A stretch of DNA of 43,105 bases from NCBI GenBank assembly GCA_003973485.1, contig QNXU01000132.1, positions 1 through 43,105 on the forward strand, given 5' to 3'. Positions 20,140 to 25,079 of this stretch are shown piece after piece (position 1 is the first letter of the stretch; the number at the start of each line of letters is the position of its first letter). The notes under the pieces were generated by a model that worked only from the letters and a program-made list of their open reading frames with translations, did not search any database and was not told the origin of the DNA. The stretch comes from Bacteroidota bacterium. Lineage in GTDB: Bacteria; Bacteroidota; Bacteroidia; Cytophagales; Cyclobacteriaceae. The position numbers and the translations under genes were made by a program.

Positions 20140-20230
20140 TAAACAATTTATAACGAAGAGGTAAGAGACAGGCTCGTTGACCCTCTGGCAACCTGAATCA
20201 AGGTGCCAAATCCTGCCCGATTTTGGGAAA
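20140..20230 (+). ncRNA. SAM-I-clan-like (S-box-like) riboswitch upstream of metY
   Basis: GAGACAGGCTCGTTGACCCTCTGGCAACCTGAATCAAGGTGCCAAATCCTGCCCG contains the S-box-like core GAC.GGC...GCAACC...GGTGCCAA.TCCTGC, upstream of O-acetylhomoserine sulfhydrylase. Boundaries approximate. Confidence 0.8.
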
Positions 20231-20245
20231 TATAAATTAATAATT

Positions 20246-20392
20246 ATGAACAACTTACATTTCTTCGGTTTTAGCGACCAATTCAATTCAGCCAGCTCGG
20301 CTAAAATCTCAGCATCAACAAATAAAGCTTCTAAGCTTTATCCCATTCTTTCAATTGCATACATGCGAATGTGTATGTGCTGTTGTTGCTAA
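20246..20392 (+). CDS. Candidate Cys/Met-rich leader peptide (48 aa)
   Basis: MNNLHFFGFSDQFNSASSAKISASTNKASKLYPILSIAYMRMCMCCCC*; last codons TAC ATG CGA ATG TGT ATG TGC TGT TGT TGC TAA. Lies between the riboswitch and metY. Confidence 0.72.
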   Translation: MNNLHFFGFSDQFNSASSAKISASTNKASKLYPILSIAYMRMCMCCCC

Positions 20393-20400
20393 TCAACAAC
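20382..20400 (+). promoter_or_regulatory. Hairpin over the leader Cys codons and stop codon
   Basis: GTTGTTG-CTAAT-CAACAAC, perfect 7-bp stem with the stop codon in the loop. Confidence 0.6.
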
Positions 20401-20431
20401 TCAATTCTATTTGGATTCATTTCGATAATCT

Positions 20432-20460
20432 AAAGGGAAAACTACACCCTTTTCAGTTTT
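20432..20460 (+). terminator. Weak terminator-like hairpin in the met leader
   Basis: AAAGGG-AAAACTACA-CCCTTT followed by TCAGTTTT; 6-bp stem, so weak. Confidence 0.35.
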
Positions 20461-20539
20461 AAGATTCCTTTCGAAACATTTTTAACCCATTCAAAATCAA
20501 TTTGTTATAAATTTTTAGTGATTCAGTCAGATAGTCTGA

Positions 20540-22917
<2,378 letters not shown>

Positions 22918-22931
<14 letters not shown>

Positions 22932-24117
22932 AGCAGGCTTATTCGGATTGGGAGTAGTAGGCTCTGGAGTTTATAAAGCTTTACTACAAAATGAAAAATA
23001 CGGTATTTCTATTGAAAAAATTGCCGTGAAAAATATTGATAAACAGAGAGATTTAGAATTACCCAATGGAATCCTCACCACTGAGGAAGATGAACTTCTT
23101 GAAAATACAGATCTAGATTTTATTATAGAATTAATCAATGATCCTGAAGAGGCTTTTAGCATTGTGAAAAAGGCTTTTGAAAATGGGAAGTCTGTAGTGA
23201 GTGCCAATAAAAAAATGATAGCGCTATATCATAAGGAAATTCTCGAATTGCGAGAAAAATTTGATGTTAAATTCTTTTATGAAGGAGCTGTTTGTGGTAG
23301 TGTTCCCATTTTAAGATTGCTGGATCAGCATTACAAATCAGATCAGCTTAAGTCTATAAAAGCCATTGCAAACGGAACCTGTAATTTTATATTATCAAAA
23401 ATGGTAAGTGAAAATCAGGATTATAATTCCGCATTGAAGGATGCTCAAGAGTTAGGCTTTGCGGAATTAGACCCTTATTCTGATGTGAGCGGAGAAGACA
23501 CTCGTTTTAAATTATCTATCATGATTTATCATGCTTTTGGAGTATTTGTGCATCCTAATAAAATTCCTTTGCAAGGAATCAATTTCTTGGATGAACACAT
23601 TAAAGATTTTGCTCAAAAACATCATTTAAAAATTAAATTGATTGGGGAAGTTCAGGAAGTAGAGGGTGAAATCACTGCTAAAGTTGAACCACAATTGGTA
23701 AATGATAAGGATGATTTCTATACAATTGAAAATGAATTTAATGGTATTTTAGTGGATGCAGAATTCACAGGTGAGCAATTTGTGAAGGGTAAAGGGGCAG
23801 GCAGTTTTCCTACAGCTTTAGCTGTATTATCTAATTTGATAGATTTGAAATATGATCTGGCAATTGCTAAAGTATCTGATAAAGAAGTCAAGACTTATGC
23901 TAAAAAGTCAGAAGCTCGAATTTATTTTATAGCTGGTTTACACGATGAATATATTTTTAACGATTTAGAAGTTCTGAACAAAGAGAGGAATTATGTTATT
24001 GCAAAAAGCGAATTCCATCAATTAGAAAAATTAAAGAAGGATAATCCTAACTTATATTGGGTTCAACTTTCAGGAAATTTTTTAAAAGAAACTATAAAAC
24101 AGGATGCATTGGTTTAG
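22918..24117 (+). CDS. hom: Homoserine dehydrogenase
   Basis: [83 protein letters not shown]. Confidence 0.93.
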
Positions 24118-24167
24118 GGATACCATCTTTTTTAGTTTACTTTGGCTTTGTAAAAATAAAATCCAAA

Positions 24168-25079
24168 ATGAAAATTGCAGTTCTTTCAAGAAACCCGAAT
24201 TTATACTCCACCAAAAGATTAGTTGAAGCCATTGAGCAGAAAGGTCATGAGGCGCTCCGGCTTGATCACATGCATTGTGATATTATTATGGATGAGGCGG
24301 GTCCTTCTATTTATTATCATGGCGAAAAATTAGAAAAAATAGATGCTATTATCCCTAGAATTGGAGCTTCTGTTACTTTTTATGGTACAGCAGTTGTCCG
24401 ACAGTTTGAAATGATGAAAACGTTCAGTGCAGTAGATTCTTTAGCTATTACCCGTTCTAGAGATAAACTGAGAAGTTTACAGATTTTGTCTCGTTCTGGT
24501 TTGGCAATGCCACGAACTGCTTTTACGAATCGATCTGAGAATGCTGGGGAATATATTTTGGAGCATTTAGGTAAAGCTCCAGTGGTTTTGAAATTATTAG
24601 AAGGTACTCAAGGCTTAGGGGTTGTTTTGGCTGAAACCAGAAAAGCAGCCGTTTCAGTAATCGAAGCTTTTGAAGGTTTGAAAGCGAGGATTATTATGCA
24701 AGAATTCATTAAAGAAGCTGGTGGTGCAGATATTCGTGTTTTTGTAGTGGATGGTGAAGTGGTTGGTGCTATGAAGCGTCAAGGTAAAGAAGGAGAATTT
24801 CGCTCTAATTTACATAGAGGAGGTTCTGCAAATGTCATCAAATTAAGTCGTGCTGAAAAAGCTGCGGCACTTAAAGCTGCAAAAGCCATGGGCTTAGCCA
24901 TTGCAGGTGTTGACATGCTGCAATCATCTAGAGGCCCTTTGATTTTGGAAGTGAATTCTTCACCAGGTCTGGAGGGTATAGAAAAAGCAACTGGAAAAGA
25001 TATTGCGCTAAGGATTGTTGAATATATTGAAAGAGGGCTAGATAAAAAGCGTTTGCCGAAGGATAAGGTGAAGGCTTGA
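24168..25079 (+). CDS. rimK: RimK-family ATP-grasp ligase (ribosomal protein S6 glutamate ligase-like)
   Basis: [84 protein letters not shown]. Start ATG 24168. Confidence 0.92.

Follow-up and report, generated by a model that had tools for sequence, protein, structure and literature searches.

Actinobacterial cys genes can be preceded by leader ORFs that have a string of Cys codons close to their stop and lack an obvious terminator, and Rho was suggested for these leaders in 2005 (PMC1262725). The polycysteine small ORFs (sORFs) of mycobacteria are reported to act in Cys-responsive attenuation (Canestrari et al. 2020, as cited in PMC9094748). Ribosome-mediated attenuation is also predicted for the uORFC-8-2 motif upstream of cysS in Rhodobacterales, where two tandem Cys codons (14-15) are combined with a two-stem structure that ends in a U-run, an intrinsic terminator, and with no riboswitch (PMC8632094). 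For Flavobacterium psychrophilum, leader-peptide attenuation has been proposed for amino-acid operons, including pheA and hisG, in a paper whose main text mentions neither a SAM riboswitch nor a Cys leader (PMC9723704).

Riboswitches, too, can be coupled to short ORFs. The Mbox-pe20 and B12 riboswitch-ppe2/metE elements of Mycobacterium tuberculosis directly control a small upstream ORF (uORF), although they bind other ligands, and the available parts of the two papers report neither a regulatory codon run nor a second amino-acid sensor (PMC12810186, PMC11260477). The Mbox readout includes Rho-dependent termination (PMC12810186). Two signals meet on one met mRNA leader at Bacillus clausii metE, where SAM-I and AdoCbl riboswitches stand in tandem, but there the two aptamers independently control transcription termination and a translated sensor is absent (PMC2258182).

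Here we describe a locus in a 43,105-nt stretch of Bacteroidota DNA (the window) that resembles both groups. Like the actinobacterial and mycobacterial leaders, it has a stop-adjacent Cys run upstream of sulfur genes. It differs from the actinobacterial leaders in its phylum and in the Met codons that are added in met operons, and from the mycobacterial sORFs, which are leaderless, in that the ORF lies behind a 94-nt SAM-I aptamer. With trp- and his-type attenuators it shares a cluster of pathway-product codons within a short ORF, but not the intrinsic terminator. As at the M. tuberculosis Mbox, the closing stem of the riboswitch adjoins the uORF start. Two known devices, the Cys leader and the riboswitch-gated uORF, are here joined into one, a combination that we did not find reported: our literature search, with subscription papers mostly outside it, returned no SAM riboswitch with a Cys leader and no Bacteroidota Cys leader. 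With a probability of roughly 70%, we read the locus as a SAM-gated, Cys-codon-sensing leader that would allow expression when levels of both SAM and Cys are low.

Features of the leader region and the genes that follow it, in window coordinates
Feature	Coordinates	Strand	Description
SAM-I (S-box) riboswitch aptamer	20145..20238	+	Rfam RF00162; covariance-model score 73.2 bits, above the gathering score of 44.4; E 2e-15
P1 stem	20145-20152 with 20231-20238	+	AATTTATA with TATAAATT; eight A-U pairs
AT-rich linker, P1 to leader ATG	20239..20245	+	AATAATT, 7 nt
Leader ORF	20246..20392	+	48 codons, ATG start, TAA stop, end ...YMRMCMCCCC-TAA; peptide MNNLHFFGFSDQFNSASSAKISASTNKASKLYPILSIAYMRMCMCCCC*; from sequence and ORF list
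Cys/Met regulatory codon run (putative)	20363..20389	+	ATG CGA ATG TGT ATG TGC TGT TGT TGC
Small hairpin, Cys codons with sequence past stop	20382..20400	+	GTTGTTG/CAACAAC; Marivirga group, not general
Long imperfect hairpin 3' of leader stop	20412..20489	+	TGGATT..TTTCGA..AAAGGG / CCCTTT..TCGAAA..AACCCA; from fold of window and alignments
Second hairpin 5' of metY	20518..20548	+	GTGATTCAGTCAGATAGTCTGATTGGCTCAC
metY, first structural gene	20600..21928	+	O-acetylhomoserine sulfhydrylase-type PLP enzyme; Pfam Cys_Met_Meta_PP, 455 bits
metX	21906..22931	+	homoserine acetyltransferase-like, alpha/beta hydrolase fold; ORF reaches upstream to 21861
hom	22918..24117	+	homoserine dehydrogenase; Pfam Homoserine_dh

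A preliminary description of this DNA had proposed an ATG-initiated 48-codon ORF with five Cys and three Met codons at its end, which the sequence matches exactly. The last nine sense codons comprise three Met, one Arg and five Cys, and the rest of the ORF is free of Cys, again as described. The AT-rich context that had been pointed out upstream of the ATG is present (TAATAATTATG), the ORF does lie between a SAM-I riboswitch identified by Rfam and metY-metX-hom (Pfam assignments for metY and hom), and 207 nt separate it from the metY ATG. That description had, however, treated the riboswitch as a mere neighbour, a part of it that we would revise, since the P1 stem abuts the leader start and the riboswitch therefore appears to be part of the leader device. 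After hom, the window contains a RimK-like ATP-grasp gene (24165-25079).

We surveyed 111 SAM-I riboswitch loci from the window genome and its relatives (59 genomes searched), taking nearly all of their surroundings and classifying the first gene of each. We counted an ORF as a Cys-tailed leader if 3 or more of its last 10 codons were for Cys, and such an ORF, of 22-53 codons, follows 46 of the 111 riboswitches. The first gene behind it is metY (23 of 33 such loci), OsmC-metY (4/4), a cystathionine-lyase/synthase-like gene (CGL-type, 7/14), a ferredoxin operon (4/4), sulfite reductase (2/2), an ATP-grasp enzyme (2/2), a TonB-dependent transporter (2/3), an NhaC-type transporter (1/1) or, once, unassigned. 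No Cys-tailed leader precedes metH (0/39), metX (0/4) or hom (0/1). Sulfur-acquisition genes thus have the leader at 45 of 64 loci versus 0 of 44 for metH, metX and hom (Fisher p 2e-15; loci of related species are not independent, and p-values are therefore indicative). Around the same 111 riboswitches, the sense strand gave 46 such ORFs, the antisense strand 1 and a gene-internal window 2. An ORF ending RCSCCCC at G138/L137 was rejected as a chance match, being antisense to a long sulfatase-like ORF. A clear Cys tail is missing at 10 of the 33 metY and 7 of the 14 CGL-type loci, and throughout one genus, g51. The window genome's other SAM-I riboswitch (L001, G000:C62:2105-2228) stands before metH, without a Cys leader.

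The position of the ORF relative to the riboswitch is also constrained. Measured from the end of the riboswitch, the ATG of the ORF falls at -7 to +15 nt (median 9) for 45 of the 46 leaders, while most metH genes start at a distance of 39-83 nt. At 44 of 45 leader loci P1 retains 7-8 of its 8 pairs, nearly all of them A-U, with the 3' arm (e.g. TATAAATT) beside the start codon. Given that the leader ATG is a median of 9 nt past an A/U-rich P1, SAM binding should block initiation on the leader. A riboswitch-adjacent ORF is kept even at sulfur loci without a Cys tail (14 of 19, versus 7 of 39 metH loci, p 8e-5). In genus g51 (L266-L289), all 19 readable metY leaders have a riboswitch-adjacent ATG at the usual spacing and none of the 19 has the Cys tail. 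Genus g51 is, as far as sequence can tell, a natural experiment that splits SAM gating from Cys sensing. In our reading, SAM controls leader initiation and the Cys run forms a second, losable module; together, riboswitch and leader appear to make up one device.

From these comparisons we infer translation of the leader, SAM control of its initiation, stalling at Cys and Met codons, the direction of the response and the involvement of Rho. The 455 nt upstream of metY would then be a two-input RNA regulator. When SAM is plentiful, the geometry suggests that the all-A/U P1 closes 7 nt before the leader ATG and blocks ribosome entry. When SAM is low, the leader would be translated and, judging from codon content and conservation, the ribosome would reach the Met and Cys codons before the stop. 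If Cys-tRNA is scarce (or, in met operons, Met-tRNA too), the ribosome may stall at the codon run; otherwise it would finish and leave. In the least certain step, a ribosome stalled near the stop would set a downstream RNA state that allows transcription into metY-metX-hom, and a leader that is untranslated, or translated and released, would lead to premature termination, possibly Rho-dependent. The operon would thus be on only if SAM and Cys are both low. At metH the SAM signal may suffice, which would account for a riboswitch without a Cys leader.

If true, a small-molecule riboswitch and a tRNA-charging sensor are built into one leader. The gene-wise use would fit metabolic logic, with the Cys input where new sulfur enters, Met codons mainly in met operons and neither at metH. 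It also suggests how SAM-I riboswitches may act in Bacteroidota without terminators or Shine-Dalgarno-type sites at the gene. Whether all parts hold across the lineage we regard as an even bet: in this wider form, a Bacteroidota logic element would have SAM-I regulate a leader ORF that senses Cys-tRNA (and Met-tRNA), with a Rho-dependent readout, turning sulfur-assimilation operons on when SAM and Cys are short and leaving metH to a plain riboswitch.

How the signal is read out bears on two unlikely alternatives that we rate alike. One is a classical trp-type attenuator, in which competing antiterminator and intrinsic terminator hairpins surround the Cys codons and SAM control is separate. The spacer between leader stop and gene is indeed more structured than its shuffles (mean z -1.7, p 8e-14), as this would lead one to expect, a property that the leader body and gene start do not share. 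In the Marivirga group, the Cys codons pair with the sequence immediately past the stop, and a few loci, such as L115, have a convincing intrinsic terminator. However, there is no terminator-like site in the leader region of the window, and spacer hairpins have no U-tract: across 81 of them, T is no more frequent after the hairpin than before it (3.07 versus 3.11 of 8, p 0.96). We therefore rejected the intrinsic terminator as a general feature, given this lack of T enrichment and the few positive loci. Pairing between Cys codons and spacer is likewise not above shuffles across loci. The long hairpin 3' of the window's leader stop is similar in close relatives and has no strong U-tract; RNAalifold supports only part of it (weak support for the Marivirga spacer), and an outer stem can be seen by eye in six species. 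The preliminary description had seen the hallmark of ribosome-mediated attenuation here, of which the terminal Cys-codon cluster stands, whereas a trp-type terminator and competing hairpins are not seen in general.

The other alternative, which we consider just as improbable, is translational control, in which stalling or termination on the leader alters how accessible the metY start is, or ribosomes reach metY by reinitiation after the leader. Riboswitch control of a uORF with reinitiation is known for M. tuberculosis ppe2 (PMC11260477), and the spacer contains hairpins. Against it, predicted folds do not sequester the gene start (unpaired 0.607; with a shuffled spacer, 0.591), and the distance from leader stop to gene, 71-260 nt (5th to 95th percentile), is long for reinitiation.

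We favour a Rho-dependent readout of the SAM-gated leader because intrinsic terminators are not generally present and because the leader RNA, rich in C and poor in G, is unstructured. Such a composition is compatible with Rho-dependent termination of untranslated leaders without proving it. Leader bodies have a C/G ratio of 1.87, against 1.16 for SAM 5' UTRs that lack a leader in other Bacteroidota, and C exceeds G in 99% of them; Gly, Asp, Glu and Trp codons are scarce in these bodies. C also exceeds G in 82% of first-gene coding starts and 78% of metH spacers, and as evidence for Rho the bias is weak. With neither a general terminator nor general Cys-codon pairing, the switching step itself has no direct sequence support.

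Leader anatomy was compared over 75 loci: 45 of the 46 above, with one outlier set aside, to which loci from named genomes and close relatives were added. Leaders at these loci are 22-53 codons long, and their tails differ sharply from their bodies. Cys reaches a frequency of 0.47 over the last 12 codons, as against 0.008 in the rest of the ORF, and the last Cys codon is flush with the stop in 62 of the 75 leaders. Cys codons are mixed (275 TGT, 163 TGC), which is expected if selection acts on the amino acid and not on the nucleotide string. Met occurs in the tails of 31 of 41 non-redundant metY leaders versus 9 of 24 others (p 0.0036), and its frequency in bodies shows no difference between the two (0.009 and 0.011). 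The Met input that had been offered as a "perhaps" thus gains support, mainly before metY. A Met-Arg-Met 9-mer with the Arg codon CGA (ATGCGAATG) occurs at 20363-20371 in the window and at 13 other leader loci from several families, just before or inside the Cys run. CGA accounts for 18 of 32 Arg codons in tails versus 6 of 58 in bodies; codon-level pausing or local RNA structure may lie behind this.

Conservation follows the same division. In the Marivirga group, orthologues of the window's leader lie at the same position and are 44-75% identical in protein sequence, and two genomes from another family of the order have an ORF ending RMCCCCCCC. Among four close relatives with equal-length (48-codon) leaders, the 10-codon tail shows 6 synonymous and 0 nonsynonymous differences, counted pairwise and hence not independent, and the 37-codon body 22 and 89. 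The body is thus under hardly any constraint, in contrast to the frame and tail. A leader profile search of 292 genomes of the order found matches in the close family only, since the bodies of more distant leaders are not homologous; those leaders were reached by starting from the riboswitch. The notion of a cysteine translation sensor controlling metY, which the preliminary description had advanced, withstands this comparison, in that relatives keep the position of the ORF and its terminal Cys codons as the rest diverges.

Alternatively, the product could be a functional small protein, or a nascent Cys cluster that binds a metal or thiol reagent, so that the peptide and not Cys-tRNA would be the sensor. 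Metal binding or a reaction with oxidants is conceivable for long Cys runs, and the ORFs of these relatives all end in Cys-rich tails. We nonetheless consider this very unlikely: bodies are mostly unrelated in sequence and vary freely while the Cys run recurs, Cys spacing differs by locus (CCCNNCCC, CCMCCCC, CCCYCCCCC), in most leaders the run extends right up to the stop, inside the ribosome tunnel, and Met codons join it before metY. Short ORFs are common in any sequence, but a chance ORF in the 5' UTR is refuted by the comparative data: the Cys4-stop motif TGYTGYTGYTGYTRA is found a single time in the window and in none of 100 dinucleotide shuffles, the Met-Cys4-stop motif ATGTGYTGYTGYTGYTAA has 7 occurrences across 24 whole genomes, always at the metY leader and once in each of seven Marivirga-group genomes, and the ORF is sense-strand specific across the 111 riboswitches.

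To place the SAM-gated Cys leader phylogenetically, we drew on a pattern scan of one genome per species (84,980 species), and the statements here rest on the matches listed. Among those matches, a SAM core together with an adjacent Cys leader was found in Bacteroidota only: in Cytophagales (Marivirga, other Cyclobacteriaceae, Flammeovirgaceae, Nafulsella, Pontibacter, Thermoflexibacter and Microscillaceae), and further in Mucilaginibacter, Chitinophagales and the Saprospira-like Lewinella and Membranihabitans. CysH (PAPS reductase) appears as a further target among the matches listed. Pattern matches in Streptococcus, Mollicutes and others were rejected as unrelated sequence, with no SAM core beside the matching ORF. 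SAM-I riboswitches are present in 209 of 248 sampled Bacteroidota genomes. At 70 SAM-I loci from other Bacteroidota families, which probably include Bacteroidales and Flavobacteriales, we saw no clear Cys leader, and most of the closing stems belong to another type; one of the 70, L344, has a CC-containing ORF.

The Cys-tail pattern may also help to recognise sulfur genes, among them unassigned TonB-dependent transporters, an NhaC-type transporter and an ATP-grasp enzyme. TonB-dependent transporter genes lie behind a SAM riboswitch and Cys leader at L125, L140, L183 and L200, and are candidates for the uptake of sulfur compounds (methionine, cysteine, thiols). An ATP-grasp enzyme (...KPIAIFYEHxEWFKPLF...), perhaps a thiol or peptide ligase, is found in the same setting at L107, L114 and L226. 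At three loci a second Cys-tailed ORF follows the first leader in series: it ends ...HHWATCCCCCCLN at L104 and ...NAHCCMCCVCCCML at L115, both before sulfite reductase, and ...YMRMRMRSCCC at L189, before the NhaC-type transporter.
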